Shown: in pieces, positions 30,441-54,929 of the stretch | How the letters are laid out: every line of letters starts with the position of its first letter | Position numbering within the stretch: the first letter of the stretch is position 1 | Assembly (NCBI GenBank): GCA_030280995.1 | Contig: JASXTE010000005.1 | Coordinates: 3,826,501 to 3,890,500 of the forward strand | Direction: 5' to 3' | Length of the DNA: 64,000 bases | Source: Hemileia vastatrix | Lineage: Eukaryota; Basidiomycota; Pucciniomycetes; Pucciniales; Zaghouaniaceae | Program-made: the position numbers and the translations under genes | Notes under the pieces: model-generated | The model's database searches: none | The model's input: the letters and a program-made list of their open reading frames with translations, nothing else | What the model was told of the DNA's origin: nothing

Positions 30441-30768
30441 GCAGTTTAACCTCTTGTTGGAGGACCGGAATTGAATTTTCACAAAAATTATTTTTTTGTG
30501 TTTTAATTATACTGAGATTTTTTATTGGATTTTGATAAGATTTTCGCAGTTTACCCTCTTGCTGGAGGCCCAAAATAGAAGGAGATACTTTCAGTTTAAC
30601 CTCTTGCTGGAGGTGCAAAATAGAAGGAGATACTTGCAGTTTAACCTCTTGCTGGAGGTCCAGAATAACATTTTCACATAAATTATTTATTTGTGTTTTA
30701 CTTATACTGAGATTTTTAATCGAGTTTTGATGTGATATTTGCAGTTTACCCTCTTGCTGGAGGTCATA
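30441..30768 (-). repeat. Hairpin motifs inside E2 pol coding sequence
   Basis: Five copies of CAGTTTA(A/C)CCTC-TTGCTG-GAGG lie in frame, e.g. stem 30599-30603 / 30610-30614. On the sense strand each encodes LQQE(V/G)KL. E1 has two copies here, so E2 gained a local duplication of about 45-bp units. Confidence 0.85.
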
Positions 30769-31019
30769 AAACATACCCTTCCAACCTTTATCCAACCTAA
30801 TTTGGCCCATTTTGCCTTTTTCACCATTTTTAAATTTTATAGAAAAACAGGGTAAATCCAATAAACATATAGAAAAGTCCATAACGTATTTGCACTCCAA
30901 AGTAATATTAACAGAAAATAATTGAGAATCCACTTGAATTATCTCCAAGTGAGCTGACCTATTGCAATCCGGGATCTCATCCTGAGGAGAGATTACAACA
31001 TTAGAGTGATCAGCCCCAG

Positions 31020-36489: not shown

Positions 36490-36928
36490 TGTCACACTCC
36501 ATGTGACACTTGAGGCAAAAGTAGCTCACTAAATCAATAAAATAGAAGTCTAAATCCATACTGAAAGCGCAGAAAGCAATTCTACATAGCAACTGCAACT
36601 TTCCTTTGTGTACTCACTATTCAACCACGCTATTCTAAACTTTAAATCTTAATTAGTCAATCTCTCAATAGTGTGTCTCAGTCTTTTCCTCAATAAGCGA
36701 CGCACAGCTCAATAGTCATTGTAATGATGCACTAAAAAGTTTATTAAATATTTGTGGATTATTAAAAGGGGTAGTAAGCATGTACAGAATGGTTAGTGGA
36801 GGATTAAAGGGTTGATGGATGTTAGTGAGGAGGATCCAAGTGTAATGGATGTATTTTTTAATTGTCTGTGGTGGGAGGAATAGTGGATGGGTATGAGGTC
36901 AATGTGAGGAGGAGTAAAGGATAGAAAA
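36490..36928 (+). repeat. D 5' LTR, left part
   Basis: Matches 61264-61702. Ends at the B target copy GAAAA (36924-36928). With 54935-55306 it makes an 811-bp LTR against 810 bp for the 3' LTR. Confidence 0.92.
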
Positions 36929-38105
36929 TGTCAGTATAGTCTAGTATATAAGTATGATATAATAGTGTTATTTTATGGTCCTACTACTTATTAATAAATG
37001 ATTTAGTGATTAAACCTCAGGGGAAGACTAATAGAATAGTTATACTCAAATAAAACTCACAATACTTGGATTTAAATGCGTGCTAGTGGTGGAAAATAGA
37101 AGAATAAAATATAGTTATAGCTATTATAAAGATAATATCAATTTATAAGGGCTTTATAATATATTTCTGAATGCTAATAATTGTATTGTAGTGTTTTTAT
37201 GAAGTGTAGTAATTGAATGATGATAATAAACCGTCAAAATCCCTCCTTACTTATACCCAAATCCACTGGAGTGCACAGACCTTCAATCCAGATGATGTCA
37301 CTGCTATCCCCGGCAATTACAGCACTGTGAGGGCTCATCACCTCCCCATGGCGTCCACTTCAAGCAGTTTCAACACCCAGACCTCCATTAAGGACCCTCC
37401 ATCACTATTAATAATAACACAGAGTCATACCATAAATAGAAAACCCAGATAAAAGCGGATACCTTAAAGAAACAGGTAAAATAAATGATCAAAAAGAGAT
37501 TTAATGAAACTAAAAGCATATAAAGGAAACAAATAAAATGTCCAAGCCCTCAATAACATCCCCAAGCATCAATATTAACCCAGAAACATCCTTCCAACCC
37601 ATAAATCCGTGAATAACCATCCAAGGAAGTAATTTCAGTTGTCCAAACTGCGTGTATGCGCCTGATATAGGTGTCTATGCTTCTGTAGGCGTTGTGAGTC
37701 CACTGATTTCGTCCATATGACCTAAAATAAGCAGAAAAACAAAGGTTATAGGCTATTAAGGGGCTAAAACCCACTTATATACCTAAATATACATAATATA
37801 CTGCATATTTCACTGAATATGAGATTTATGTATACATATAAGCTTATGTATGTCAATAATTACTTCATATCACTTAAGATAAGTATATTATGACTCCATT
37901 AACACCTTAATAAGTATTATTATGCCATGGATAAGCTATTTAAACTATTATAAATTATATAATAGAATAATAATTATATATATATATAATAAAATAATAT
38001 ATATTATTATTTTAACCTTATTTTTAAGATATAAGCTTAATCTAGTTAAGGTTATCTTATTTTAAGCATAAGAAATACTCAGTCCTAAGGATATTTAGGC
38101 TGACA
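36929..38105 (-). repeat. B 3' LTR
   Basis: TGTCAGTATAG to TTTAGGCTGACA. Just beyond it, sense GGGGTGAGGGAG (38106-38117) is the polypurine tract, sharing GTGAGGGAG with A. Confidence 0.93.
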
Positions 38106-38219
38106 CTCCCTCACCCCAAAAAAAAACAATAAAAAAAATGTTAAGACATTTTAATTAAACTTAAGGAGTGAAAATATAAAAAAAATAATTTTTATAATAC
38201 ATATACTGAATGAACAGTA

Positions 38220-41200
38220 TTATTTAGATTTAAATTTTTTCAAGAGATTTTTAAGATCAGAGATTTCATTTTCTGGAATCCACTGGTCATATTCACTTGA
38301 TTTATTTTTAAATCTTAATAGATACTCAACTCCCTTATCTTTAGTAAGGTGTCTCTTTTTAAGTATCTTTTCAATTTCTGCCTTTTCGACTATTTCTTCA
38401 GGTTGCTGTTTATGCCTTCCTGATCTTCTTGGAAATAGAGCAGTATCATTAGAATGGTATGGTTTTATAAGAGAAATATGAAATACTGGATGTTTTCTAT
38501 CATAAGGTGCATATAGAATAACTTCAACAGCATTATTACCAACCATCTTTTTAACTACAAATGGTCCAATGAATGGATCCTTCAATTTAACATTACCATT
38601 TAAATTGAAATGTAGCGTTGAAATAAGGACTTCATCACCCTCTTTGAACATTTGTTCTTTATGGGCTTTATCCCATCTTTTCTTTTCATACTCAAAAGCC
38701 TTATTTATACATTCTTGAGCATGTTTTCTGCATAGTTCCTGCATCTGAAGAAAAGATTTAGTACCTGGATGAATATCCAATCTATGTAACTTATTAAGAG
38801 ATTTAGAAGGGGTATTAGGTACATAACCCAACCATAACTCAAATGGCTTCTTGCCAGTGACAGAATGTACTGTACTATTATATGCAAATTCTAAACCCGG
38901 GATAAGGGTTACCCAATCATGTGTGAATTTGTCATTGTCTTTAAAATTAAGACCAAAAGCACAGTATCTTCTTATCATATCTTCTAAGGTTTGTATCATT
39001 CTTTCTGCTAGCCCATCAGTTTGTGGATGGTGTGCTGTAGAAAGTTTTAATTGACACCCTGAAACATCCATAAGTGACGTCCAGAACTCAGAAGTAAATT
39101 TAGGATCTCTGTCAGAAACTATTGCTTTGGGGAAACCTGCTGTATTTAACATTTGTGTCCACCATAAAAAAGCTAAGTCCTTTGCAGAAACCTCTTTGTG
39201 GGTAGGAATAAATTTACACATCTTTGTAAATCTATCTACAATTACCCAGCAGGAGTTATAACTCTTATGCCCTGCTATTGGCAAACCTGTTACAAAGTCC
39301 ATGTTAATGATTTCCCATGGAGCTTTTGGTTTCTCAATTTGTTGTAATAAACCAGCTCTTTTACCTGTTAATCTTTTAGATTTTTGACAAGAATCACATG
39401 TTTCAACATATTTCTGAACATCCTCAGACATGTTAATCCACCAAGCTGTGTTTTTTACTCTGGTTAATGTTTTATGATAGTCAAAATGACCTGCTAATAT
39501 ATCATCATGACATATACTTAACATTAACTCCTTCATTGAAGGGGGAATTACAATTACATTACTTAATTTTTTCCTGTAATATATAAAACCATCCTCAATG
39601 GAAAATTTTCCTTTTTCTAATGCCTCTTTATACTTAATTGGTAATGTTTTTATTAAAACATTCATTGAAGCATTAGATGGATCATTTAATATTGTAGTTA
39701 ATTTACTTAAGTCAGGATCTGAATTATAATTATCAAGAATTGATTGCATAAATTCATCCTCAAGATCTACAATATAAATGCCATAAATGTTAATAATCTC
39801 TGACTCAGGAACATAAGCAGGATTATCATCATTATTAGGCAGAGGTACTCTAGATAACAGATCTACATTAGAGTGCAAGGTTCCTGCTCTATGTGTAATA
39901 GTCATCCGTCCTCTGTATTCTTGTACAGCTAATTGCCATCTAAACATGTGTCTATTAGGAGTTTTCATGTTTAAGAGTGACTTAACTGCACTACAGTCAG
40001 TTATTAACTCAAATTTTTGGTCTTCAAGGTAATAATGTAGCTTCTCAAGAGCCCATACTACTGCCAAACATTCAAGTTGAGTAGCACCATATTTTAATTC
40101 ACCACTTCTCAGAGTACGTGAAATATAGCAGATTACTACTTCTGACATTTTTCCTTCAATAAGTTGTTTTTGATGTAAAGCAGCACCCAGTCCAACAAAA
40201 CTTGCATCTGTATATAACACAAAAGGTAATTGGAAATCTGGTAATCCCAAGATAGGAGCTGTTATTAAACATTCCTTCAACTTATTGAAAGCTTGTTGTC
40301 TTTCATTATTCCAAATGAAAGCTTCTGATTTCTTTATCAGTGTGGTCAGTGGTGCAGCAATTGATTGGTAGTTTTTTATATGTTGTCTATAATAACCACA
40401 CATACCAAGAAAAGATTGTACATCCTTCACATTTTGAGGAATGCCAATATTTTTTATTGCAGCAACTTTATTTTGGTCTACACATATTTGTAAGCCAGAT
40501 ACAATATGACCAAGCACTTTTAAAGATTCAAACCCAAATTTACATTTTTTCAATGCAAGGGTCATTTTTATTTCATCCATTTTCTGAAATACTTTCCTTA
40601 AATGGATTAAGTGTTCATCAAAAGATTTAAAGAACACTATGATGTCATCAATGTATACCATTAACCATCCTTCAATCATTTCATTATGGAATGTTATATC
40701 CATTAACTTCTGAAATACTGATGGAGCATTTTTTGGTCCAAATGGCATTCTGACATACTTATAAATTCCCATGTGTGTTGTTATCAACAAAAAGTTCTGT
40801 GAATTCTTTTCAACAGGAATTTGATGGTACCCTATATTTCCATCTAGGCAACCTATATATTTAGCACCTTTAAGGGTAGCATGTATAGAGGCAATCCTTG
40901 GCAAGGGATAAATATCATCTACTGTAAATGTATTTAATGCTCTATAATCACCGCACAGTCTTGCTTTATCTTGTTCATAAGAAATTAGCACTGGTGATAT
41001 TACACAATATTTTGGCGTAGTTTCAACCTTCTCAAGAATGTTCATTTTCAATAACATCTTAATATTATCTTCTATGTCTTTCCTCTTCATTGGTGAAGCA
41101 GGGTATGGTTTCTTTTTAAGACTAGCAGGAATATTATCCATGTCACAGGTTAAACTTATTTTCATTTCATGATCTTTTACAAGGCCAAGTTCATTTGTAC

Positions 41201-42326
41201 CATGTGCAAAAGCCATTGGAAAAGCTTTAATTAATTCCAAAATATTATCTTTCTCAGTTTCACTTATCTGAGTGCCAAATGATGCTTTTGAAATTTCTGT
41301 TTCCAGAAGTTCCATCTCATTGGATTCTCTTCCTTTAGACAGGGAATTTGTTACTGACTCAATGTGTAAGACTGTGTTAAAAGAATTTATTTTAAATTTC
41401 CTTTTACCATTCATGCCAATTGTAAAATTGTTATTAGCAGGGTCTAATTTTACACCAAATTTAGTCAGAATATCATTTCCAATGATAAAACAGTTACTAC
41501 AATTAGTATTATCCATTACTACAAAGTCACAAGTTACCCTTACATAACCATGTTGGTGTTTAAAGAAAACAGCAGCTTTGTATTTACCAATGGGGTGTAG
41601 TACTGATCCAAAACCTCTCCAATTTTTATTTTGAAGTGATTCAAGCTTAAACTTATATTCACTATCAATTTTCTGTAATGTATTAGTGGAAACAACTGAA
41701 CCAGCAGCTCCTGTGTCCAATACTATATTAACATTTTCACCAGAAATGATAGCTGGAACCGTGATAGGTGTCATTCTAAAGTTATCAGCATGTATATCCT
41801 TAATGATTTCAGCATCCTCAAAATTCATTACAGATTCATTTGAGTCCATATTTAATATTGGATTTTCAAAGATGGACAAATCATCTTCCAACATACAGAC
41901 TTCATTTTCATCACTATATGAGATATTGCTGTCATAATCACTTGATTCTTTACTTTTTTCAGTTTCAGTTTCAGATTCACGTTGATTTTCAACAATATTT
42001 ATGTTTTTCTCACATTTGTGACCTTTGACCCAAGGTTTGTTACACTTATAACAAGTATTTGTTTCATACTTTTTAGGTACTACAGGTGCAGTAGGTTTTT
42101 TCTGCTTCTCCTGAAGTGTTTTTGAATTCTGAGTTTTTACAGGTTCAACATTTTGCTTATAAGTGGAATTGCAAATATTAATAAAGTCAGAATATTCAGT
42201 AACATTTAAGGCTCTAGCTACAACAATTTCTCTGACAGATATAGGTAATTTGTATATTATCTTATCTTTCAATAAGTTAAAATCCATATGAGGCTCAATG
42301 GCTTTTAATATTTTATTTAAATTCAT
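38220..42326 (-). CDS. B Pol: protease, RT, RNase H, integrase, chromodomain
   Basis: ATG at 42324-42326; 1368 residues. It begins inside the Gag region (after the frame change), then a knuckle CYKCNKPWVKGHKC, protease NIVLDTGAAGS, RT MVYIDDIIVF, RNase H LYTDASFVGLGAALH, integrase HHCC (HDDILAGH...CDSC) and D,D-E (NMDFVTG, VSDRDPKF, DGLAERM), and a C-terminal chromodomain (VEYLLRFKNKSSEYDQWIP). All catalytic residues are present. Its ATG overlaps the stop of the upstream frame (TAATG), either a one-base deletion against A or stop-start reinitiation. Confidence 0.93.
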   Translation of the reverse strand: MNLNKILKAIEPHMDFNLLKDKIIYKLPISVREIVVARALNVTEYSDFINICNSTYKQNVEPVKTQNSKTLQEKQKKPTAPVVPKKYETNTCYKCNKPWVKGHKCEKNINIVENQRESETETEKSKESSDYDSNISYSDENEVCMLEDDLSIFENPILNMDSNESVMNFEDAEIIKDIHADNFRMTPITVPAIISGENVNIVLDTGAAGSVVSTNTLQKIDSEYKFKLESLQNKNWRGFGSVLHPIGKYKAAVFFKHQHGYVRVTCDFVVMDNTNCSNCFIIGNDILTKFGVKLDPANNNFTIGMNGKRKFKINSFNTVLHIESVTNSLSKGRESNEMELLETEISKASFGTQISETEKDNILELIKAFPMAFAHGTNELGLVKDHEMKISLTCDMDNIPASLKKKPYPASPMKRKDIEDNIKMLLKMNILEKVETTPKYCVISPVLISYEQDKARLCGDYRALNTFTVDDIYPLPRIASIHATLKGAKYIGCLDGNIGYHQIPVEKNSQNFLLITTHMGIYKYVRMPFGPKNAPSVFQKLMDITFHNEMIEGWLMVYIDDIIVFFKSFDEHLIHLRKVFQKMDEIKMTLALKKCKFGFESLKVLGHIVSGLQICVDQNKVAAIKNIGIPQNVKDVQSFLGMCGYYRQHIKNYQSIAAPLTTLIKKSEAFIWNNERQQAFNKLKECLITAPILGLPDFQLPFVLYTDASFVGLGAALHQKQLIEGKMSEVVICYISRTLRSGELKYGATQLECLAVVWALEKLHYYLEDQKFELITDCSAVKSLLNMKTPNRHMFRWQLAVQEYRGRMTITHRAGTLHSNVDLLSRVPLPNNDDNPAYVPESEIINIYGIYIVDLEDEFMQSILDNYNSDPDLSKLTTILNDPSNASMNVLIKTLPIKYKEALEKGKFSIEDGFIYYRKKLSNVIVIPPSMKELMLSICHDDILAGHFDYHKTLTRVKNTAWWINMSEDVQKYVETCDSCQKSKRLTGKRAGLLQQIEKPKAPWEIINMDFVTGLPIAGHKSYNSCWVIVDRFTKMCKFIPTHKEVSAKDLAFLWWTQMLNTAGFPKAIVSDRDPKFTSEFWTSLMDVSGCQLKLSTAHHPQTDGLAERMIQTLEDMIRRYCAFGLNFKDNDKFTHDWVTLIPGLEFAYNSTVHSVTGKKPFELWLGYVPNTPSKSLNKLHRLDIHPGTKSFLQMQELCRKHAQECINKAFEYEKKRWDKAHKEQMFKEGDEVLISTLHFNLNGNVKLKDPFIGPFVVKKMVGNNAVEVILYAPYDRKHPVFHISLIKPYHSNDTALFPRRSGRHKQQPEEIVEKAEIEKILKKRHLTKDKGVEYLLRFKNKSSEYDQWIPENEISDLKNLLKKFKSK

Positions 42327-43144
42327 TAAAATACCATAGTTTTGTCACCATTCAACGGATTATACCTAGTCTTCTCATACAGTCTTTGCTGAGTAAGCCT
42401 GAATTTAGAACCTCCAAATTGTTTTTCAATAAGTTGTTTCCATTCAGCCCAAGAGTAGTCTCTACCCTCACTTAAGACAGCTTCAAACCATAATAAAGCA
42501 ACATCCTTAAATAAAGAAATTAATTTTGATGTTATCTCTTCATCTGGTAACTTATATGAGAATTTCAAGTTGTCAATTCTTTGAATAAAATGTTGCCAAT
42601 CAGAGCTGGCTTCCCCATCATAAGTTGGGTACTGATCTATCTTAGGCCAGTTCTTCTGATTGGATTTTATCTCACTAATCTTAGGTAAATTCAACAACTC
42701 ATTCACTTTTGATAAATGGTCTTGTATTTCTTCCTGCACGGATTTGTGACTTACATTTTCAGATTTGACACTACCACCAGATGGTTTTAATTGTGGTGGT
42801 ACATGGAAGGAATGAGATCCACTTTTGCTAATGAAAGGATTATTAATATATTGATTATACTTATGATTATCCTGGTTCATTAGTAGATTGGCAGTTTCAA
42901 TCTCAACTTTAGTTAATCTTTGTAGCAACTCAGAGACACTTTGATTTGTCTGGGCAAAAGATAACTTTGTTCTTGATTCAGTCTTTAATAAATGTGTTTC
43001 ATATAATTTTTCTAACTCACAAAATTTGTTTGAAAGGTCATTATATTTATTACTCAATGAATCATATTTAAGAGTTAGAGACAAATGTTCTTTCTCTAAT
43101 TCTTTATTACGTGTTGCTAATTGAGAAATGTTCAATGTTAAGGA
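42326..43144 (-). pseudogene. B Gag, C-terminal part
   Basis: Same frame as 43145-44050 after a TAA at 43145-43147. Coiled-coil-like N-terminus, then the capsid region (NWPKIDQYPTYDGEASSDW...). It matches residues of A Gag-Pol around 560-660. It ends TMVF-stop where A reads through into the next Gag segment. Confidence 0.88.
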
Positions 43145-44050
43145 TTAAATTGTATCACTAGTGAGCCTAACTGTCTGTTCCTCACAATGAGTCATTCTAT
43201 TCCACAATGCTGAAACAATTCTATGGACAGTTGGATTTTTGTTAAAATATTCCATGTCCTCCTTTTCAATTCTCTCACTCTCCTGTGAACTTCTCATCTC
43301 ACTAGTAGGTGGTTTCAACTGAGGATTAACTGTATTATCATTGTATATAGTACTGTTATTATGGACAAAAGACAAGTCAGGTGTATCTACTCTAAAACCT
43401 AAATTTCTTAAATCCTCCTCTATTTTTAGTACAGATTTAACATCAATAGAATTACCTATATTGTAATTATCAGTATTATGTCTAATCTGAGAGGGTAAGT
43501 TACTTACCAAGGGATGGTTGCCAGTCCTGATTTTTGGCGCTTTTTTCCCTTGTAAGGGTGAGCTGAGGAAGTCAGATGAGGGGGTGGATCCTTGTTGCAA
43601 CTGTGGCTTGTCCACTGTTGGTGAAACCAGTCCCATTTCCATTTGTCTACCAGGATTTTCTCCTGGGAGTGAGTGGAACCTCCTTGCGTTGGGGGTTGCT
43701 GATTTGATTGACTGGGCTGGCCTCTCTTTAATTCTGCCATTGCCTGATTCATCTGCTGAAATTCTACCTTGCAATTGTTTTGCAACTGCTCTACTTCTTT
43801 GAACATGAGAGATTTTGATTCCTCTAGCTTCAGAACCTGTTTGGCCAGGTGGGACAGTTGATCCTGAAGAGGAGGAGACGTCTTTTTGATATTTATCTTT
43901 TTTAAGAGGGCGTCCTTTTCCTCTATACTCATGCTTTCTGGCTGGGGGTACTGTTGTCCCTCCATGGTGATGTCCTGGAAAGTTTTTGTTAGCTTTAGAC
44001 CTGGTATTATAAGCAGGCTGTACACTTACACTATCCTGGGGAGCACTCAT
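43145..44050 (-). CDS. B Gag N-terminal frame (unspliced frame)
   Basis: ATG at 44048-44050 (MSAPQDS), 301 codons through the 5' intron and across the whole of the overlapping ORF without a stop. Basic and Ser/Pro-rich; little resemblance to A in the overlap region but aligned after it (VSNL, GN.ID). In A this frame continues into Gag-Pol; here TAA at 43145-43147 ends it. Confidence 0.75.
   Translation of the reverse strand: MSAPQDSVSVQPAYNTRSKANKNFPGHHHGGTTVPPARKHEYRGKGRPLKKDKYQKDVSSSSGSTVPPGQTGSEARGIKISHVQRSRAVAKQLQGRISADESGNGRIKERPAQSIKSATPNARRFHSLPGENPGRQMEMGLVSPTVDKPQLQQGSTPSSDFLSSPLQGKKAPKIRTGNHPLVSNLPSQIRHNTDNYNIGNSIDVKSVLKIEEDLRNLGFRVDTPDLSFVHNNSTIYNDNTVNPQLKPPTSEMRSSQESERIEKEDMEYFNKNPTVHRIVSALWNRMTHCEEQTVRLTSDTI
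43504..44050 (-). CDS. B splice-accessed overlapping ORF
   Basis: Exon 1 44030-44050 (7 codons), intron 43975-44029, exon 2 43504-43974 in the other frame: about 163 residues. Features shared with A: D(I/V).M.G at the junction, an IKK-led helical region, Pro/Gln-rich middle, WKWD, HPY followed by basic residues, and PW-stop. Only splicing of the 55-nt intron connects the ATG to this frame; an internal ATG (43963-43965) is an alternative start. Role unknown. Confidence 0.7.
43975..44029 (-). other. B 5' intron (55 nt)
   Basis: Donor AGT|GTAAGT, branch GCTAAC, acceptor TTTCCAG|GACATC. Length is 1 modulo 3, as in A (64 nt), so splicing makes the same frame switch. It contains no stop in the Gag frame. 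Confidence 0.75.
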
Positions 44051-44562
44051 ATTGTTCAGAATAACAATATTTTACGTCTAAAAAAGGAAAAAACTCTATG
44101 GAATTAGTAGACAAAAGATATTAGCAATTTTATTACTAATAAAAAAGCAATGGAGCTTACCCTGAATTTATATCATTATTTATTTAAATAAAATATAAGA
44201 AAAATTCGAAAAAAATCTGTTAAAAATATAATAATAAGTTTAACTAGACCTCTATAAGGGTGAATAATTAGCTTACCAAGATTTAGCCAAATACCAATTT
44301 AATTGGGTGTTATATTGGTGTCCAAATACCAAGTGAAATTGGGTTTATATTGGGTACAGTTACTACTGTAAATATCTAATTTATATGATAAAAAATTAGT
44401 ACAATTATTATAAGGGTTCTTTTCCGCAATCAATGAGTTATGATGACCCACTAATATGTAGCAGACCCAAATATTTGGTTAATTTTGAGCTGTACTAAGG
44501 TAAAAATCATGTCCCAAGGCTTATACTAAATAATAAGTAAAATATAAGGAAAGACCCCCAAT
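44051..44562 (-). other. B leader and primer-binding site
   Basis: 512-nt untranslated leader. The primer site (sense ATTGGGGGTCTTTCC, 44548-44562) abuts the LTR and corresponds position by position to A at 46039-46053. No gene. Confidence 0.65.
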
Positions 44563-44896
44563 TGTCAGTATAGTCTAGTATATAAGTATGATATAATAGT
44601 GTTATTTTATGTTCCTACTACTTATTAATAAATGATTTAGTGATTAAACTTCAGGGGAAGACTAATAGAATAGTTATACTCAAATAAAACTCACAATACT
44701 TGGATTTAAATGCGTGCTAGTGGTGGAAAATAGAAGAATAAAATATAGTTATAGCTATTATAAAGATAATATCAATTTATAAGGGCTTTATAATATATTT
44801 CTGAATGCTAATAATTGTATTGTAGTGTTTGTATGAAGTGTAGTAATTGAATGATGATAATAAACCGTCAAAATCCCTCCTTACTTATACCCAAAT
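44563..44896 (-). repeat. B 5' LTR, left part (cut by A)
   Basis: Ends at the A target copy CAAAT (44892-44896). Continues at 54087. Confidence 0.93.
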
Positions 44897-46038
44897 TGTC
44901 AGCCAGGCTATTCCAGGAGTCCAGTAAATGATATATAAATTATAAAACCTTAAAGAGTGGGTAAAACTTGTATTTAATGAATATAACTTAATATTTTATT
45001 ACATAATGAAATTATATAAGAATTTTATTATATACAAATGTTACATTAAACTTATTGGTTATATATATTTTTATATACAATTAAATTGGGCATAATATAA
45101 TATATTCTACAAATAATGGCGCATTTTTATATATTTAATAATTATCAATTTATATTTAATTAATTAAAAAACATATATTATAATTACAAGTGTAAATTTG
45201 ATTTATAATATATTTAAATTAATTACTTAAATTTATATATTAACTAATACCTCTCATATGACACTAAACAATTATTAAGGACGCTTCTTTTGACCCTTAA
45301 TTGTGTAGAAAAAACAAATAAATTAATTTGAACTAAATTGAGATTAATTGATTGTTTTGTTGCGTCAAATTATTTTTTTGTTTCACTTAAAATGTTCTCT
45401 AATCAGGATGGACCATCTGTTGGGAATTACATTTCTCATAGTTCCTATGTTTCCACTCTTGTTTAGTTATTTACTATTGTCACTTACTGATTTGGGGATT
45501 AATGGCGGGGAAATTGGATTCTTAATTGGGCTTTTAATTAATTGTTTCATGTTTTTCTCTATATTGTTATGTTTCATTTACTCTTTTTGATATATTTGTT
45601 TTATTCCTTTCTAATCATTGTGTTTACTGATATAGTAGCGCTTCAGAGGACCCATTGCCTATAAAAGGGCCTTGGATAATCCCCTGTAGCCTTATCACTT
45701 ATTATACACTCAACAATTTAAATACAATTTTTATATTACGTTTATATTCTTTTTATTAGTAATAAAAATCTAATTAAAATTTTATATAACAATTTAAAGG
45801 TTGCTTTAAGTCTGATAGTAATTATTTTGGTTGCCGCGCAGAACTCTTACTTAAAATAATATTAATATTAATAAAACCAAGTTGTTGTCATCTCCCAGCT
45901 CACTTATCGTTGTTTTTCTCTCAATAAATTAAATAATTTTATTAAATTTTATTTTTTTTATTACCCATACCTTTTTCCTCCTTCTCCTCCTCTCATTCCT
46001 TCCTCCATTTTCTCCTTCTTCTAGACGACCAGCCGACA
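44897..46038 (+). repeat. A 5' LTR (1142 bp)
   Basis: TGTCAGCC to CAGCCGACA. Carries the TATA box at 45660-45667. An 80-codon hydrophobic frame (45348-45590) lies upstream of the TATA box and is probably chance. Confidence 0.96.
45660..45667 (+). promoter_or_regulatory. TATA box in A LTR
   Basis: CCTATAAAAGGGCC, the only strong TATA motif in a sensible place in the LTR; the copy in the 3' LTR is at 53703-53710. Transcription probably starts some 30 bases downstream, giving an R-U5 of about 350 bases. Confidence 0.65.
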
Positions 46039-46737
46039 ACTGAGGGCCTTTCCAAACGACGACGACGATCGAAGCCTGGCGACGAACGACAAAACGCACG
46101 GACCACCTAGCAAAACGAAACTTTTGCCGCGACTGTGTTTCGAACTTGGGTTCGACATATTAGGTTTATATAGTATTAATTTTTATATTATTTTGAAGTG
46201 ATTTTTCGATCACTATAGTAAGTTCACCTTTGGGCCTCTCACTCATAATACTATATTTTTATTGCAATAACAGTGATTGTGGCTTAATTGCTGATTCACT
46301 GAGTGTAAGTGTTCAATTTTAAAAATTTTTTTTTCCTAGTTGACCATTATAGAGTGTTAAATCCTCTTAGTCCTAGAAGAATTAACATTATTATTAATAC
46401 AAATTGAATTATTAATTTAATTTTTTTTATTATTAATTATTGTTAATTTTTGGTTGACTTAAAAGTACATTGTGCTTAGTCCCAATATATTGCCATAATT
46501 AATATTGGTAATTAATTGGTTGAATTAACTTACTTGTTATTCCCAATTTAAACTTGCAATCCATTTTTTTTTAAAAAAAATTAATTTTTTAAATTATTAC
46601 TTTATATTGAAAGTTATTTTTTCTATAATTTAATTAATTAAAAAAATTTTTTTTTTATATTATTTGGAGCAATTATTGACTAACTTTGATTATTTTTTTT
46701 ATAAAGTACAAAGTAAAATATTATTCTTCCCACTAGT
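46039..46737 (+). other. A leader and primer-binding site
   Basis: 699-nt leader without a gene. The first 15 bases (ACTGAGGGCCTTTCC) align with the B primer site with three transitions, so they are the probable primer site, although A lacks a perfect TGG start. The tRNA is not identified. Confidence 0.6.
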
Positions 46738-47419
46738 ATGTCCAACAATTTGACAGAAAAAATGGATAACATGCAAGTGGATGAGATAGAAATTGACTAT
46801 GATGCTGACACTGTAAGTTCTTCTAAAGTTGGTCATAAAAAATCTTATGCTAACACAAAGAATTCTCATACTGCAGGATGTGGAAATGACAGGAAATGCA
46901 AACAAACCAAACCCCCTTCCCCCAGTACCACAGAAGGAAGTAAAGCCTCTAGTGCCTCAAGAAGGTCTTCCAAAAGGCTTCAAAATAAAAAAGCTTCCTC
47001 TGCCACAACAAATCAGCAACCTCTCCAGTCATATAAAAGAGTTGAAGACAGAAAATATGACGTACAAAGCAAAGGTAGACACATTGTGGGATCAGGTCCA
47101 AGAACTCAGGAACCAGATTCAGGCCCAGGCCCCTCCTCAATTGCCTCCCAATCAGCTTCAACTTCAGGCTCAACCTTCACAGCCACCCAGCTCAACCATC
47201 CAAAATCCAAATACTATGGAAGTAGAGCAATGGAAATGGGATTATCTAATGAGTCACTACCAACAGAATGTGCAACACCCTCCTCATCATCAGCCTGGCC
47301 CATCCAGAACACCCAATTTCCATCCACCTCCTCATCCCTACCAACAAAGCAGGAGAAAGAAGGCCCAAGCACAATCCCAAACCCAGTCCCAGGGGAAGTT
47401 TCCTCCTCTGCCATGGTAA
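46738..47419 (+). CDS. A splice-accessed overlapping ORF
   Basis: Exon 1 46738-46812 (25 codons), intron 46813-46876, exon 2 46877-47419 in the other frame: about 205 residues. Helical region after IKKLPLPQQ, Pro/Gln-rich centre, VEQWKWDY, HPY and basic residues, PPLPW-stop. B shows the same order and motifs. The Gag-Pol frame stays open through the same 539 bases. An accessory protein made from spliced RNA is the best explanation; role unknown. Confidence 0.75.
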
Positions 47420-50400
47420 GTAATTTGGTTGATAGTCACTTGGGTATGTTTTCTAATAAATCTTCTTCTGCAGGTAATATTATTGAACATGGTGAAAGAA
47501 CAGTTAAACCTGTTAAAAGACAGCTTCCTGTAACTAGTAGCCCTATTGATGTAATTAGCAAATTGTCATTTGATGAACCTTTACATTTAACTTCTACATC
47601 TTTAATTAATCCTTCTCTTGCAATTAAAAATGATTCTGTTCCCCCTGAAATCTATAACTTAATTGAAAAAACTTCTGAGGAAATTTTGAAAGATACCCTT
47701 AATTTTAATATTGTGAAAGACAAACATGTGAGAGATGTGTTAATCCATGAAAATGATAGATTAAATAATTTACACTTGCAATGTAGAGTGAGTTCTTCTG
47801 TACAAGATACAGCTTATTTAAAAATCAAAGAAACCTTGAATATTGTTCTTAGTCAACAAAAACAAATAAGAAGTGACCATAGAGCTATCTCAGATAGAAA
47901 TATCAGTCTGCATAAAACATTGAGTGAATTGAAACCCCTTATTGAGGAAAATTATTCATCCAAAAATGAAATAAAATCTCTACAAAATGAGTTGAAGAAA
48001 CTAAAAAATGACTTCCATGCACTAAGTACCAAACACTCAGTTTCTGAGGACAGAAATGTTCTATCTCTTGCAAAAGTGAATGACCAGATGTCTGAAATTC
48101 CAAGAATAAGAAACTATGTGTCTGACCTACAGGAAAAGTTCTCAACCTTAACCATCAATAATGAATTAAATGAGATTTCTTCCAGTAAGCTGCATAAAAA
48201 TAAAGGGAAAAAACCTGAACAAAGTTCATCCTTTCTTCCTCATATTTCAACCATTAAACAAACTGACAATGAGTCTGTAAAATCTTTTGCCACTAGCAAA
48301 AAATCTTGTGATGGTCATGCACCAGCTGTTTCTGTAAATAATGAAATTTCTGAACACCTGGCTAAACTTCAGGAATTATTACTAATGAATAATTCAAATC
48401 AAAAAGTGGACCATCCCAGTAGTCAGAAAAATTGGCCTAAGTTAGACCAATATCCTACCTTTGATGGTGATTCTTCCTCTGATTGGCAACACTTTATCCA
48501 AAGAATTGATAATTTAAAGAGATCTTATAAACTACCTGATGAGGAAATTGTTTCTAAGCTAATTTCTTTATTTTCCAATGTAGCCTTGATGTGGTATGAA
48601 TCTGTCCTCTTAGATAACAATCATTATACATGGAATGATTGGAAATCCTTGATTGAGAATCAGTTTGGTGGTTCAAAATTCAGGTTAGCTCAGCAAAGAC
48701 TGTATGAGAATACTAGATATGTATCCTCCTCTGTTGAAAAGCCCATTGTTTTTCTGATGAAAATAACTAAAATCCTTAGAGCAATTGATCCAAAGATGGA
48801 TTATGATATTTGGAGAGATAAAATCTTGTATAAATTACCAAATTCTCTTAGGGATTTGATTGTTGCTAGAACTGAGCATGTAAGGGAAAATTCTTCTTTC
48901 ATTAATATCTGTAATGAAGTACTACTCAACCAAAGATATGAACCAAAGAATTACCTTAGTAAATCTTATAATGATCAGAATAAACCTTCTATAAAGCTCC
49001 CAGAAAAATCTGGTAAACCCTCTGCCCCAGTTGCACCTAGAAAATATGCAACAAGTACTTGTTATAAATGTAACAAACCGTGGCAAAAGGGTCATGTTTG
49101 TGACAAGAAAATTCATCTTGTTGAACAAAATGAAGACACTGATGAAGTTGAAATTGATGTCAATAATTCTTCCAGTGACTGTGAAAGTAATATCTCCTAT
49201 GAAAATGAATCTGTTAAAGATGTTTTAATGTTGGAACATGATGTCCATTATTTAAATAATATATCTGAAGATTGTGTATTGAATTTATCTTCAGTAGAAA
49301 ATGCTGAGATAATTAAAGATATTACTAACAATTCTATTCCTATATCCCCTTTAAAGGCACCTGTTATCATTAATGGTAAAAATGTTGATGTAGTTCTTGA
49401 TTCTGGTGCTGGAGGAAGTGTAGTATCTGAAAAAGCTTTGGCTTCAGTGGATATGGATTATTTGAGTAAATTATTACCTATAACTTCTGAAAAATGGAGA
49501 GGGTATGGTTCTACCTTATTTCCTATTGGCAAATACAAAACCTCTGTATTCTTCAAATATAATGGTGGTTTTGTCAGAGCTATTTGTGAGTTTGTTGTCA
49601 TGAAAAATGATAATTTGAGCAATTGGTTTATTATGGGAAATGATATTTTAACAATGTTTGGTGTGAAACTGGACCCAGCAAATAATTGCTTTACATTAGG
49701 AATGAATGGGAAAAGAAAATTCAAAATTTCTTCTCCTAAACCTTCTGGGCATTTGTTGAAATCTTGTAACTCACTCACCCAATGTAAAGGTAGAACAACA
49801 ACTGAAATGGATGATTTATTACATGAAATAAATACCGCTTCTTTTGGTGATCATTTAACTAATGAACAAAAGGATTCTATTGTTGCCTCTATTACCTCTT
49901 TCCCTATGGCTTTTGCTCATGGTTCTCATGTCTTGGGAATTGTTCAGGAAGAGATGAAAATTACCTTATCCTGTAATTTGAGTGATATTCCTCCTTCCCT
50001 TAAGAAAAAACCATATCCTGCTTCTCCATCAAAAAGAAAAGATATTGAAGATAATATTGAAACATTATTGAAAATGAATATCATTGAGAAAGTGGATGTC
50101 ACCCCCAAATATTGTGTCATCTCCCCAGTCTTACTTTCTTATGAAAAAGATAAGGCTAGATTATGTGGAGATTACAGAGCTTTAAATACTTATACTGTTG
50201 ATGATATTTATCCTTTACCCAGAATTAATTCAATACATGCTACCTTGCAAGGTGCAAAATTTATTAGTTGTCTGGATGGTAATAAAGGTTATCATCAAGT
50301 TCCAGTTGAGAAAAATTCTCAAAATTTTTTGCTTATTGCTACTCATATGGGAATATATAAGTATGTTAGGATGCCATTTGGCCCTAAAAATGCTCCTTCA

Positions 50401-52905
50401 GTTTTCCAAAAAGTCATGGATAACACTTTCCATCAAGAAATTATTGAAGGTTGGCTCATGGTTTATATTGATGATATTATTGTTTTTTCTAAAACTTTTG
50501 ATGAACATATGATTCATTTAAATAGAGTTTTCCAAAAAATGGATGAAATCAATATGACCTTATCTTTAAAAAAGTGTAAATTTGGTTTTCAATCTTTGAA
50601 AGTCCTTGGCCATGTTGTGTCAGGCTTACAAATTTGTGTAGACCATAATAAAGTTGCTGCCATTCAAAATGTGAAAGCACCAACTTCTGTAAGAGAGATA
50701 CAAAGTTTTTTAGGTATGTGTGGCTATTATAGACAATATATTAAAAATTATCAGGTCATAGCCTTGCCTCTTACAAAACTAACCAGAAAAGATGTTGCTT
50801 TTCTCTGGAATGATGACTGTCAAAAAGCTTTTAATACATTGAAAAATTGCTTAATGTCAGCCCCTATATTGGCTCTTCCAGATTTTAACAAGCCATTTGT
50901 ACTTTATACAGATGCTAGCTTTATTGGTCTGGGTGCTGCCCTTCACCAAAAGCAAATTATTAATGATAAATCCTCAGAGGTTGTAATTTGTTATATTTCA
51001 AGAACCTTAAGAAATAGTGAATTGAAATATGGTGCCACTCAATTGGAGTGCTTAGCAGTTGTTTGGGCTCTTGAGAAACTTCATTACTACTTGGATGACC
51101 AAAAATTTGAGTTGGTAACTGACTGTAGTGCTGTGAAATCTCTCTTAAACCTCAAAACACCTAACAGACATATGTTCAGGTGGCAACTTGCTGTTCAGGA
51201 ATACAGAGGAAGGATGACTATTATCCACAGAGCTGGAAATGTTCACTCTAATGTTGATATGCTCTCCAGATTGCCTCTGCCAAATAATGACTCCAATCCT
51301 GCTTATGTACCTGAGGATGACACTGTTCATATACATGGTATATTTATAGTTGACATGGAAGAAGAGTTATTACAGTTAATACTGGATTCATATGATAAAG
51401 ATTCTGACTTAAATAAATTAGTTACTATTTTGAATGATCCTAAGAATGCTTCAATTCAAGCATTAATAAAAACTCTTCCTGCAAAATACCAAAATGCTTT
51501 AAATAAAGGAAAGTTTTCTATTGAAGATGGTTATATTTATTATAGAAGGAAGCTTACCAATGTAATTGTTATTCCTCCTTCAATGAAAGAAACTATCCTC
51601 AAACTTTGTCATGATGACATATTAGCTGGTCATTTTGATCTTGAAAAAACATTAATTAGAATCAAAAACACTGCATGGTGGGCTAATATGTCTGAAGACA
51701 CAAAATTATATGTTGAATCTTGTGATTCCTGCCAAAAATCTAAAAAGTTAACAGGCAAGAGAGCAGGGTTATTACAACATATTGAAGCACCTAGTGCTCC
51801 CTGGCAAATCATTAATATGGATTTTGTCACTGGTCTTCCTGTTGCAGGTAAAGACAGCTTTAACTCTTGTTGGGTAATAGTTGATAGATTCACAAAAATG
51901 TGCAAATTTATTCCAACCCACAAAGATGTATCCACCAAAGAATTAGCTTTCTTATGGTGGTCTTACATGTTTAATATTATTGGTTTTCCAAAAGCCATTA
52001 TCTCTGATAGGGATCCAAAATTCACTTCTGAGTTTTGGACCTCTTTGATGGATATTTGTGGCTGTGAGTTAAAATTATCTACAGCTCACCATCCTCAGAC
52101 TGATGGTCTAGCTGAAAGAATGATTCAAACTCTGGAAGATATGATTAGAAGGTATTGTGCCTTTGGTTTAGAATATAAAGATAATGACAGATTTACTCAT
52201 GATTGGGTCACTCTTTTGCCTGGTCTTGAATTTGCATATAATAGCACTGTTCATTCTGTCACTGAGAAAAAGCCTTTTGAGCTTTGGTTAGGTTATGTCC
52301 CAAACACTCCTGCTCAGATTCTCAATAATAAATTACCTAAGTTGGAACTACATCCTGGTGTAAAATCTTTTATGCAAATGCAACAGCTATGCAGAAAACA
52401 TGCTCAGAGTTGTATTGATAAAGCATTTGAATATGAAAAGAAAAGATGGGATAAATCCCATAAAGAATACACATTTAACAAGGGTGATGAAGTGTTGATC
52501 TCTACTGTCCATTTCAATTTACAAGGTAACCACAAATTAAAAGATCCTTTTGTAGGACCATTTGTTGTTAAAAGAATGGTTGGTGATAATGCAGTAGAAG
52601 TTGTATTGTATTCTCCATATGATAGGAAACATCCTGTCTTTCCCATTTCCTTGCTTAAACCTTATACTTCCAACAGTGACTTATTTCCAAAAAGAAGAGG
52701 AAGACCTAAGAAGAACCCTCAGGAAGTCACAGAAACAGCAGAAATTGATAAAATTCTCAATGATAGAATTATCACTTCTGAAAGAGGTACTGAATATTTA
52801 TTGAGATATAAGAACAAATCATCTGAACATGATGCATGGATACCTGGCAAAGAAATTTCAAATCTGCCTGCTCTGTTGAAAAAATACAAAAAGAAAAAAT
52901 CTTAG
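46738..52905 (+). CDS. A Gag-Pol polyprotein
   Basis: 2055 residues. N-terminal Ser/Lys-rich region (1-230) overlaps a second ORF. Then a coiled coil (about 340-440), Gag capsid-like domain (560-740), knuckle CYKCNKPWQKGHVC (775-788), protease LDSGAGG (D888), RT YIDD (1243-1246), RNase H YTDASF (D1392), integrase H1625, H1632, C1662, C1665 and D1695, D1757, E1793 (DX35E), and chromodomain 2002-2050 (IDKILNDR...W.PGKEI). The chromodomain in the family targets insertion to heterochromatin marks. Gag and Pol are in one frame with no shift, so the Gag:Pol ratio must be set by processing or by splicing of the 5' introns. Confidence 0.95.
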   Translation: MSNNLTEKMDNMQVDEIEIDYDADTVSSSKVGHKKSYANTKNSHTAGCGNDRKCKQTKPPSPSTTEGSKASSASRRSSKRLQNKKASSATTNQQPLQSYKRVEDRKYDVQSKGRHIVGSGPRTQEPDSGPGPSSIASQSASTSGSTFTATQLNHPKSKYYGSRAMEMGLSNESLPTECATPSSSSAWPIQNTQFPSTSSSLPTKQEKEGPSTIPNPVPGEVSSSAMVSNLVDSHLGMFSNKSSSAGNIIEHGERTVKPVKRQLPVTSSPIDVISKLSFDEPLHLTSTSLINPSLAIKNDSVPPEIYNLIEKTSEEILKDTLNFNIVKDKHVRDVLIHENDRLNNLHLQCRVSSSVQDTAYLKIKETLNIVLSQQKQIRSDHRAISDRNISLHKTLSELKPLIEENYSSKNEIKSLQNELKKLKNDFHALSTKHSVSEDRNVLSLAKVNDQMSEIPRIRNYVSDLQEKFSTLTINNELNEISSSKLHKNKGKKPEQSSSFLPHISTIKQTDNESVKSFATSKKSCDGHAPAVSVNNEISEHLAKLQELLLMNNSNQKVDHPSSQKNWPKLDQYPTFDGDSSSDWQHFIQRIDNLKRSYKLPDEEIVSKLISLFSNVALMWYESVLLDNNHYTWNDWKSLIENQFGGSKFRLAQQRLYENTRYVSSSVEKPIVFLMKITKILRAIDPKMDYDIWRDKILYKLPNSLRDLIVARTEHVRENSSFINICNEVLLNQRYEPKNYLSKSYNDQNKPSIKLPEKSGKPSAPVAPRKYATSTCYKCNKPWQKGHVCDKKIHLVEQNEDTDEVEIDVNNSSSDCESNISYENESVKDVLMLEHDVHYLNNISEDCVLNLSSVENAEIIKDITNNSIPISPLKAPVIINGKNVDVVLDSGAGGSVVSEKALASVDMDYLSKLLPITSEKWRGYGSTLFPIGKYKTSVFFKYNGGFVRAICEFVVMKNDNLSNWFIMGNDILTMFGVKLDPANNCFTLGMNGKRKFKISSPKPSGHLLKSCNSLTQCKGRTTTEMDDLLHEINTASFGDHLTNEQKDSIVASITSFPMAFAHGSHVLGIVQEEMKITLSCNLSDIPPSLKKKPYPASPSKRKDIEDNIETLLKMNIIEKVDVTPKYCVISPVLLSYEKDKARLCGDYRALNTYTVDDIYPLPRINSIHATLQGAKFISCLDGNKGYHQVPVEKNSQNFLLIATHMGIYKYVRMPFGPKNAPSVFQKVMDNTFHQEIIEGWLMVYIDDIIVFSKTFDEHMIHLNRVFQKMDEINMTLSLKKCKFGFQSLKVLGHVVSGLQICVDHNKVAAIQNVKAPTSVREIQSFLGMCGYYRQYIKNYQVIALPLTKLTRKDVAFLWNDDCQKAFNTLKNCLMSAPILALPDFNKPFVLYTDASFIGLGAALHQKQIINDKSSEVVICYISRTLRNSELKYGATQLECLAVVWALEKLHYYLDDQKFELVTDCSAVKSLLNLKTPNRHMFRWQLAVQEYRGRMTIIHRAGNVHSNVDMLSRLPLPNNDSNPAYVPEDDTVHIHGIFIVDMEEELLQLILDSYDKDSDLNKLVTILNDPKNASIQALIKTLPAKYQNALNKGKFSIEDGYIYYRRKLTNVIVIPPSMKETILKLCHDDILAGHFDLEKTLIRIKNTAWWANMSEDTKLYVESCDSCQKSKKLTGKRAGLLQHIEAPSAPWQIINMDFVTGLPVAGKDSFNSCWVIVDRFTKMCKFIPTHKDVSTKELAFLWWSYMFNIIGFPKAIISDRDPKFTSEFWTSLMDICGCELKLSTAHHPQTDGLAERMIQTLEDMIRRYCAFGLEYKDNDRFTHDWVTLLPGLEFAYNSTVHSVTEKKPFELWLGYVPNTPAQILNNKLPKLELHPGVKSFMQMQQLCRKHAQSCIDKAFEYEKKRWDKSHKEYTFNKGDEVLISTVHFNLQGNHKLKDPFVGPFVVKRMVGDNAVEVVLYSPYDRKHPVFPISLLKPYTSNSDLFPKRRGRPKKNPQEVTETAEIDKILNDRIITSERGTEYLLRYKNKSSEHDAWIPGKEISNLPALLKKYKKKKS
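46813..46876 (+). other. A 5' intron 1 (64 nt)
   Basis: Donor ACT|GTAAGT, branch GCTAAC, acceptor ACTGCAG|GATGTG. Open in the Gag-Pol frame, so retention and removal both give a protein. Conserved with B in position, branch and phase. Confidence 0.78.
47416..47473 (+). other. A possible second intron (58 nt)
   Basis: Donor ATG|GTAAGT overlaps the Trp-stop of the short ORF; acceptor TTCTTCTGCAG|GTAAT; branch-like TCTAAT. In B the matching positions are 43507-43456 (52 nt, acceptor ATATAG|GTAAT). Splicing would again give TGG-TAA, so the short product is unchanged. Weaker than intron 1. Confidence 0.4.
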
Positions 52906-52927
52906 CATTTTTTTTATTGTTTTTTTT

Positions 52928-52939
52928 AGAGTGAGGGAG
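52928..52939 (+). promoter_or_regulatory. A polypurine tract
   Basis: AGAGTGAGGGAG directly before the 3' LTR, preceded by a T-run; B has GTGAGGGAG at the same place. Confidence 0.85.
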
Positions 52940-54081
52940 TGTCAGCCAGGCTATTCCAGGAGTCCAGTAAATGATATATAAATTATAAAACCTTAAAGAG
53001 TGGGTAAAACTTGTATTTAATGAATATAACTTAATATTTTATTACATAATGAAATTATATAAGAATTTTATTATATACAAATGTTACATTAAACTTATTG
53101 GTTATATATATTTTTATATACAATTAAATTGGGCATAATATAATATATTCTACAAATAATGGCGCATTTTTATATATTTAATAATTATCAATTTATATTT
53201 AATTAATTAAAAAACATATATTATAATTACAAGTGTAAATTTGATTTATAATATATTTAAATTAATTACTTAAATTTATATATTAACTAATACCTCTCAT
53301 ATGACACTAAACAATTATTAAGGACGCTTCTTTTGACCCTTAATTGTGTAGAAAAAACAAATAAATTAATTTGAACTAAATTGAGATTAATTGATTGTTT
53401 TGTTGCGTCAAATTATTTTTTTGTTTCACTTAAAATGTTCTCTAATCAGGATGGACCATCTGTTGGGAATTACATTTCTCATAGTTCCTATGTTTCCACT
53501 CTTGTTTAGTTATTTACTATTGTCACTTACTGATTTGGGGATTAATGGCGGGGAAATTGGATTCTTAATTGGGCTTTTAATTAATTGTTTCATGTTTTTC
53601 TCTATATTGTTATGTTTCATTTACTCTTTTTGATATATTTGTTTTATTCCTTTCTAATCATTGTGTTTACTGATATAGTAGCGCTTCAGAGGACCCATTG
53701 CCTATAAAAGGGCCTTGGATAATCCCCTGTAGCCTTATCACTTATTATACACTCAACAATTTAAATACAATTTTTATATTACGTTTATATTCTTTTTATT
53801 AGTAATAAAAATCTAATTAAAATTTTATATAACAATTTAAAGGTTGCTTTAAGTCTGATAGTAATTATTTTGGTTGCCGCGCAGAACTCTTACTTAAAAT
53901 AATATTAATATTAATAAAACCAAGTTGTTGTCATCTCCCAGCTCACTTATCGTTGTTTTTCTCTCAATAAATTAAATAATTTTATTAAATTTTATTTTTT
54001 TTATTACCCATACCTTTTTCCTCCTTCTCCTCCTCTCATTCCTTCCTCCATTTTCTCCTTCTTCTAGACGACCAGCCGACA
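52940..54081 (+). repeat. A 3' LTR (1142 bp)
   Basis: Identical by eye to 44897-46038; followed by the target copy CAAAT. Confidence 0.96.
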
Positions 54082-54086
54082 CAAAT

Positions 54087-54929
54087 CCACTGGAGTGCAC
54101 AGACCTTCAATCCAGATGATGTCACTGCTATCCCCGGCAATTACAGAACTGTGAGGGCTCATCACCTCCCCATGGCGTCCACTTCAAGCAGTTTCAACAC
54201 CCAGACCTCCAGTAAGGACCCTCCATCACTATTAATAATAACACAGAGTCATACCATAAATAGAAAACCCAGATAAAAGCGGATACCTTAAAGAAACAGG
54301 TAAAATAAATGATCAAAAAGAGATTTAATGAAACTAAAAGCATATAAAGGAAACAAATAAAATGTCCAAGCCCTCAATAACATCCCCAAGCATCCATATT
54401 AACCCAGAAACATCCTTCCAACCCATAAATCCGTGAATAACCATCCAAGGAAGTAATTTCAGTTGTCCAAACTGGGTGTATGCGCCTGATATAGGTGTCT
54501 ATGCTTCTGTAGGCGTTGTGAGTCCACTGATTTCATCCATATGACCTAAAATAAGCAGAAAAACAAAGGTTATAGGCTATTAAGGAGCTAAAACCCACTT
54601 ATATACCTAAATATACATAATATACTGCATATTTCACTGAATATGAGATTTATGTATACATATAAGCTTATGTATGTCAATAATTACTTCATATCACTTA
54701 AGATAAGTATATTATGACTCCATTAACACCTTAATAAGTATTATTATGCCATGGATAAGCTATTTAAACTATTATAAATTATATAATAGAATAATAATTA
54801 TATATATATATAATAAAATAATATATATTATTATTTTAACCTTATTTTTAAGATATAAGCTTAATCTAGTTAAGGTTATCTTATTTTAAGCATAAGAAAT
54901 ACTCAGTCCTAAGGATATTTAGGCTGAAA
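54087..54929 (-). repeat. B 5' LTR, right part
   Basis: Continues from 44896 after the second CAAAT (54082-54086). It ends GGCTGAAA; the other LTRs have GGCTGACA, a C-to-A change at the terminal dinucleotide. Confidence 0.93.

Follow-up and report, generated by a model that had tools for sequence, protein, structure and literature searches.

The stretch of DNA analyzed here, referred to below as the window, comprises 64,000 nucleotides (nt) of the genome of Hemileia vastatrix (Pucciniales) (assembly GCA_030280995.1, contig JASXTE010000005.1, positions 3,826,501 to 3,890,500 of the forward strand), and lies inside the 747.6-Mb assembly of 791 contigs that was searched for further copies. Two retrotransposons lie in it: element B, at 36926-54927 on the minus strand, and element A, on the plus strand, which is inserted into the 5' long terminal repeat (LTR) of B. 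Both carry a short intron just after the ATG of gag, and its removal leads into a second reading frame, termed S, that lies over the same bases as the unspliced frame, termed U. In A, exon 1 (46738..46812, plus strand, 75 nt) encodes the 25-amino-acid (aa) N-terminus common to S and Gag-Pol and is followed by intron 1 (46813..46876, plus strand, 64 nt, phase 0; GTAAGT...GCTAAC...CTGCAG) and by exon 2 (46877..47419, plus strand), which in the S frame encodes 180 aa and a stop, with D-V-E-M, FKIKK, a coiled coil, WKWD, HPY, a basic patch and a terminal PW-stop. The counterparts in B are exon 1 (44030..44050, minus strand, 7 aa), intron 1 (43975..44029, minus strand, 55 nt, phase 0; GTAAGT...GCTAAC...TTCCAG) and exon 2 (43504..43974, minus strand, 156 aa and a stop, again with a PW-stop end). 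Removal of intron 1 gives an S protein of 205 aa in A and 163 aa in B. Read without splicing, U is open over the bases of exon 2 in both elements; in A, it forms a single Gag-Pol open reading frame (ORF) of 2055 aa (46738..52905, plus strand; protease, reverse transcriptase, RNase H, integrase, chromodomain), and in B it covers the N-terminal part of Gag (43145..44050, minus strand) up to a stop at 43145. An earlier note, made from the letters of the window, had described these introns, the S motifs up to the PW-stop and the open unspliced frame, all of which are borne out. Its proposal that unspliced RNA yields Gag-Pol and spliced RNA an accessory protein is supported by genome data, namely by exactly intron-less copies, a non-neutral S and a nearly stop-free U, and is very probably correct.

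Several features extend this description: a second intron at the S stop of A and B, two leader introns in B, spliced copies in the genome and a third family, C, with the same plan. Intron 2 spans 47416..47473 in A (plus strand, 58 nt, phase 0) and 43456..43507 in B (minus strand, 52 nt, phase 0, beginning at the S stop). The leader introns of B are b (44096..44160, minus strand, 65 nt, with intron-type ends), which is absent from copies L011 and L012, and a (44217..44276, minus strand, 60 nt), which is absent from L012. The lengths of introns 1 and 2 are 64/58 nt in A, 55/52 nt in B and 58/58 nt in C; all are in phase 0 and all are 1 modulo 3, so that the loss of either shifts the frame of the shared ATG out of Gag-Pol. 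Across exon 2, S and U are in different frames in all three families. The first bases of intron 2 are the final G of the tryptophan codon of S and the TAA after it, and exon 3 likewise starts with GTAA in A, B and C; S therefore ends in PW-stop, with TGG-TAA kept, whether intron 2 is spliced or not. The idea that intron 2 serves as a bridge from S into Gag-Pol was rejected, since its splicing keeps the S stop and enters the third frame.

The genomic copies of both elements hold a record of splicing. In a search with the S protein of B, for which 150 of 18,701 candidates were scored, four matches (4/150 scored) were uninterrupted from residue 1 to 163, and alignment showed that these copies lack exactly 44029-43975. 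Their 10-kb surroundings (L039-L042) each contain two LTRs and 5-bp target duplications (CTGTT, GTCGG, GTAGG and GTATG, read off the flanks), which indicates that spliced RNA was reverse-transcribed and integrated. L039 has an additional internal deletion in pol, and L042 lacks four introns together and retains the rest of gag and pol. For S of A, 150 of 20,631 candidates were scored; among the matches listed, at least 15 align from residue 1 and at least 14 lack exactly 46813-46876, the remaining one (L080) retaining a 54-nt remnant of intron 1. Intron 2 is also missing from 6 of the at least 14 intron-1-less A copies and from one of the four B copies (L012, which is the same copy as L042). 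These counts are lower bounds from which no rate can be read. A tree built from the overlap places copies without the intron here and there among those that have it, so that the events are recurrent. Two intron-less A copies, L053 and L054 (G000:C579:33421433 and 33429652), are identical over the compared region, lie 8.2 kb apart and have an 18-nt in-frame deletion in common; they likely represent one event that was duplicated locally. That the absences reflect chance deletions instead of splicing is hardly credible: nothing was found in its favour, identical, base-exact GT-AG boundaries recur in at least 18 copies of two diverged families and four segments are gone together in L042, which is decisive. 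Genomic DNA shows that both introns are spliced in vivo in two families, and that reverse transcription of the spliced RNA can give rise to an integrated LTR element.

Family C was reached via nested neighbours of fetched loci. Its old copies L082 and L083 have the same plan with decayed frames, and phase, intron length modulo 3 and the GTAA of exon 3 are as in A and B. A Gag query, scored for 150 of 12,056 candidates, revealed many more copies, of which three were analyzed. Two of these, L084 and L085, were chosen for a long open Gag frame, so that their selection favours U and not S: in L084, S is intact (exon 2 of 161 codons) and U has one stop, in L085 U is open and S has two stops. The third, L086, is a 5'-cut copy. 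D (L081:892-2400), a relative further removed, has a 135-codon coiled-coil-like frame over the start of Gag, with GTAAGT at either end in the same phase. It was rejected as a fourth case, the openness of its U not being significant (1 stop vs 1.6 expected, P = 0.43); it is also without a PW end, and its S-like frame has no convincing match elsewhere. D as a further case is only suggestive.

The earlier note had considered it unlikely that the first frame is open by chance in both elements, which has now been computed. When the synonymous codons of the S frame are permuted, U is expected to contain 7.1 stops in A and 5.7 in B, and none is seen (P = 0.00015; 0/20,000 permutations). The evidence in the other direction is weaker: given the U protein, the openness of S has a permutation P of 0.16 (A) and 0.12 (B), and of 0.074 (A) and 0.0015 (B) when pol codon usage is applied. 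U can have a stop only where an S codon with a final T precedes AA, AG or GA. In a pool of one copy per family, such T-ending codons make up 1/150 (A 0/46, B 0/47, C copy L084 1/57). In front of other A/G-starting codons the pooled share is 15/106 (P = 1e-5), and in front of all the rest it is 95/347 (P = 6e-16). The same count in the control, gag-pol of A, is 268/602 vs 548/1206. L085, which is outside the pool, has 0/60 vs 3/32 (P = 0.04). Among intron-bearing copies, most of which were picked by their S score and some (L001-L008) by DNA likeness, U continues into Gag to the end of the examined sequence in 19/25 A copies; in B it does so through the 681 codons examined in 15/26 copies and stops earlier in 10, the remaining one (L031) being unread because the exact ATG anchor is absent. 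The window copies L008 (A) and L013 (B) are included in these sets, and the stop of B at 43145 is private to the window copy, being found in no other of the 25 B copies read.

These data also bear on the alternative that U is not translated over exon 2, Gag-Pol being made from a downstream ATG by reinitiation after S, with an accidental or inherited openness of U. A does have an in-frame ATG at 47413-47415, in a CCATGG that overlaps the S stop, and the old C copies L082 and L083 likewise have an ATG at the S stop; however, there is none in the window copy of B or in the C copies L084-L086. Furthermore, the avoidance of U stops is strong in A, L084 and L085, and the phase 0 and 1 modulo 3 length of intron 1, kept in A, B and C, matter only if U is read through. 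The diverged A copies L073-L078, with a 63-nt intron 1, are still largely open in U, as this alternative would allow, but came from a search favouring exons 1 and 2 in one frame. Altogether, a downstream start is improbable.

The pattern of substitutions differs between the two frames. Between A and L084, the C copy found by its Gag, S is 47% identical with a ratio of nonsynonymous to synonymous substitutions (dN/dS) of 0.20, at a dS near saturation, whereas U is 30% identical with a dN/dS of 1.11. The values for S and U are 0.34 and 1.04 between A and L085, and 0.35 and 3.42 between L084 and L085; the A-B and B-C values of S are saturated. In tblastn searches, S of A matched B (E 2e-6) and C (E 3e-14), while U of A had no match in B at E 10. 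Within the A copies, omega-like values were 0.50/0.26/0.20 for S and 1.33/2.59/2.52 for U, for 126/39/29 distinct changes, as compared to 0.53/0.32/0.33 for U in a downstream gag-only control with 50/16/9 changes; such values are biased in A and B because the copies were mostly picked by S score, and the conclusion therefore rests on A versus L084. S is under purifying selection and is protein-coding by its substitution pattern, and U is held nearly stop-free as an open passage while its amino acids drift.

A neutral and frequently closed second frame had been named in the earlier note as a point that would speak against its proposal; neutrality does not hold, whereas closure is seen in some copies, including three of the five of family C (L082, L083 and L085), as in decaying transposons. 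The closure of S in several old copies, together with the loss of Gag-Pol reading from the shared ATG in integrated spliced copies, could be taken to mean that the introns are ordinary, host-type ones, that spliced RNA is a by-product leading nowhere or a result of host quality control and that S is functionless. Such an explanation is very unlikely given the dN/dS of S between A and L084, a motif order that is kept over three families while U drifts, and an exon 3 that, in all three families, preserves the S stop whether intron 2 is removed or kept.

A number of observations weigh against splicing combined with dual coding. The dS behind the S value of 0.20 is 2.4, and the NG86 method is not a dual-frame model; as S-silent changes are mostly replacements in U, it is the contrast between S and U that counts as evidence and not the absolute dN/dS. 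B taken alone is not significant for stop avoidance (0/47 vs 2/34 A/G-starting codons, P = 0.17), and neither is the 5'-cut L086 (3/43 vs 4/26, P = 0.41), in which two of the three stops are beside the cut. U of A does match the C copies L082 (E 8e-9) and L083 (E 7e-4), more weakly than S of A. Recent changes creating U stops are not clearly depleted in S-picked A copies (5/126 vs 8.0 expected) and number 3/32 vs 1.8 expected in S-picked B copies, and several copies have a stop in one or the other frame. S is without a match to a known family, Pfam and PDB giving generic coiled-coil scores below cut-off. Finally, reading from the shared ATG does not continue into U in the 63-nt variants L073-L078. 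Their introns arose by more than one kind of indel, and exons 1 and 2 are in one frame when unspliced. They were not adopted as a functional variant and no conclusion was drawn from them, as the search apparently prefers copies in which a single frame runs through exons 1 and 2; they are probably an ascertainment effect.

As regards the architecture of the two elements, the 5' LTR of A (44897..46038, plus strand) matches its 3' LTR (52940..54081, plus strand) identically over 1142 nt, with the target duplication CAAAT. B has its 3' LTR at 36926..38103 (minus strand) and a 5' LTR that is split by A into a piece at 44560..44896 (minus strand) and a remainder at 54079..54927 (minus strand), the LTR pieces being about 99% alike. 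Its pol (38220..42326, minus strand) encodes reverse transcriptase, RNase H, integrase and a chromodomain. The window copy is 34 nt short at 42168-42169, between short direct repeats, as compared to L009-L012, L014, L025 and L039-L042, in which these nucleotides are present; this loss and the private stop at 43145 mark the window copy as decayed. The order of Pfam domains is protease-reverse transcriptase-RNase H-integrase in both elements. Reverse transcriptase, RNase H and Integrase_H2C2 exceed the Pfam cut-off in both, rve is above it in B and below it in A (28.8 vs 32.6 needed), and the protease is under the cut-off in A and at that of RVP (20.7) in B. A PF00385 chromodomain is located C-terminally on the integrase (30.9 bits in A, 31.8 bits in B; cut-off 25.1). 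Judged by the order of pol domains and the chromodomain, A and B belong to a chromodomain-bearing Ty3/gypsy lineage. Two hallmarks of complex retroviruses, env and a Retroviridae pol, are not found: pol carries the chromodomain, and only 34 nt separate the end of the Gag-Pol ORF of A (52905) from the 3' LTR, which leaves no room for env. Three A copies were seen about 8,030 nt apart (G000:C19:407791, 415822 and 423852), a spacing close to one internal region plus one LTR (8,043 nt) that suggests head-to-tail arrays with shared LTRs. Three B copies lie 7,933 nt apart (G000:C84:15397748, 15405681 and 15413614), about 300 nt more than the unit in L040. Elsewhere in the window, we take 11229-16343 and 26749-33608 (minus strand), with several ORFs each, to be two copies of another gypsy-like element, judging from their ORF translations, and 3246-6461 is presumably a copia-like element, given the motifs in its ORF translations.

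Accessory regulators made by splicing have long been viewed as a mark of complex retroviruses. In HIV-1, which possesses Rev and Tat, and in complex retroviruses in general, spliced RNA gives rise to a small, basic, multimerising protein and unspliced RNA to Gag-Pol, with overlapping frames. The elements studied here differ in that they belong to a different family, and in that the spliced exon overlaps gag and not env; the resemblance of S to Rev is one of analogy. Spliced, integrated cDNAs (SpIREs) of the L1 element are also said to reveal splicing of the RNA of a mobile element. L1, however, is a non-LTR element, whereas the spliced RNA of A and B opens a new frame, and we know of no new-frame accessory protein for SpIREs.

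The earlier note knew of no Ty3/gypsy element that makes an accessory protein from spliced RNA, yet such an element is Cer1 of Caenorhabditis elegans, in which CERV is made from a spliced mRNA whose exons 1-3 are in the gag frame and whose exon 4 is in a unique frame (PMC10309623). CERV evolves fast, shows no obvious homology outside nematodes and is required for the export of genomic RNA; it contains a KRKK basic motif and a candidate leucine zipper (PMC10309623). A and B share with Cer1 a gag-pol without intervening stop in unspliced RNA and a spliced mRNA that has the N-terminus of Gag and then switches frame. S differs from the CERV described there in having 163-205 aa, in lying wholly within the start of gag and in the small amount of RNA lost on splicing, about 55-230 nt; the host is a fungus, S showed neither a cysteine loop nor a G domain, and the likeness is one of plan, with no sequence homology claimed. 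The five-exon layout reported for Cer1 is not found here, as S ends inside gag (47419 in A, 43504 in B) and L042, devoid of four introns, keeps the rest of gag and pol. CERV of Cer1 is the nearest precedent found.

Other cases are more distant. In BARE1, a Ty1/copia element, a 104-nt intron separates RNA pools for different products; splicing truncates the product to Gag alone, and the authors argue that spliced RNA is not replicated, such copies not being amplifiable from genomic DNA (PMC3735527). In contrast, spliced copies of A and B do integrate. Additional ORFs of plant LTR retrotransposons, including the env-like spliced RNA of Bagy2, represent accessory ORFs that are sometimes accessed by splicing (PMC7264820, in excerpt), and a fungal case is the antisense gene brtn of Botrytis Boty elements (cited in PMC7264820). 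In the excerpted text, these lie upstream, downstream or antisense of gag-pol and no overlap with gag is described, unlike the situation of S. No such gene was found described for a fungal or a chromodomain-bearing element in the literature that was covered, which mostly lies outside subscription journals and was seen in part.

Residues common to S of A, B and L084 are D-x-x-M, an IK pair, the leucines of the coiled coil, WKWD, HPY, the basic patch and PW, and the coiled coil is present in all three families. Protein database searches with S gave no matches, in a collection that may be poor in such genomes, and neither did a search with the alignment of the A and B S proteins (E up to 1); a protein database search with residues 560-1000 of A gave no matches, and no relative was found in IMG/VR. 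An AlphaFold2 model of S exon 2 is poor (mean predicted local distance difference test score, pLDDT, 50.6), with helices at 42-84 and 111-128 and a helix containing WKWD, so that a role in RNA binding or export rests on composition and analogy. The make-up of S, with its coiled coil and basic patch, an N-terminus in common with Gag and an access route through splicing, together with a Gag-Pol that needs both introns, points to a regulator of unspliced RNA; the likeliest role, put forward tentatively, would be that of a Rev/CERV-like regulator of its export. Alternatively, with splicing and dual coding being real, S could be a structural or replication cofactor that spliced RNA supplies early; it might, for example, be a chaperone, serve in nuclear import or integration targeting, or be a coiled-coil partner of Gag. 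A coiled coil in all three families, the WKWD helix of the poor model and an N-terminus common to S and Gag are consistent with this, and the basic patch would suit nucleic-acid binding and import equally. However, a structural partner needs no hiding behind an intron that Gag-Pol must retain, and the regulatory logic appears, by analogy, better matched by Rev and CERV; the cofactor role is accordingly plausible but rather doubtful.

The following sequence of events can be envisaged. In the genomic RNA of A and B, an overprinted exon is flanked by two small introns that can be retained. RNA that keeps both is most likely translated from the shared ATG into Gag-Pol, the overlapped part of which would be a tail of low complexity with little need for a particular sequence. 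After the loss of intron 1, translation from the same ATG most likely gives S, of 163-205 aa, with its coiled coil, WKWD helix and basic patch. In the export role, S would be an early, nuclear, multimeric RNA-binding regulator by which unspliced RNA escapes splicing and leaves the nucleus, as with CERV in Cer1 and Rev in HIV, and splicing would act as an early/late switch. It is possible, though by no means assured, that this lineage has independently evolved a switch in the style of complex retroviruses, in which a de novo gene overprinted inside gag encodes the nuclear exporter of the element's own unspliced RNA.

If this is true, spliced RNA would also be packaged, and the elements would keep shedding integrated copies that are able to make S without splicing and have lost the reading of Gag-Pol from the shared ATG; such copies could help or parasitise their parent elements. 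Cer1 being one described exception among Ty3/gypsy elements, a second and structurally different case would suggest that LTR elements have repeatedly solved the conflict between splicing and the need for full-length RNA. The overlap also represents a rare natural experiment, in which one frame is constrained in its amino acids and the other is mainly kept open, in many copies. As spliced copies integrate, the use of the switch can be read from genome sequence alone, so that it can be searched for in other genomes.
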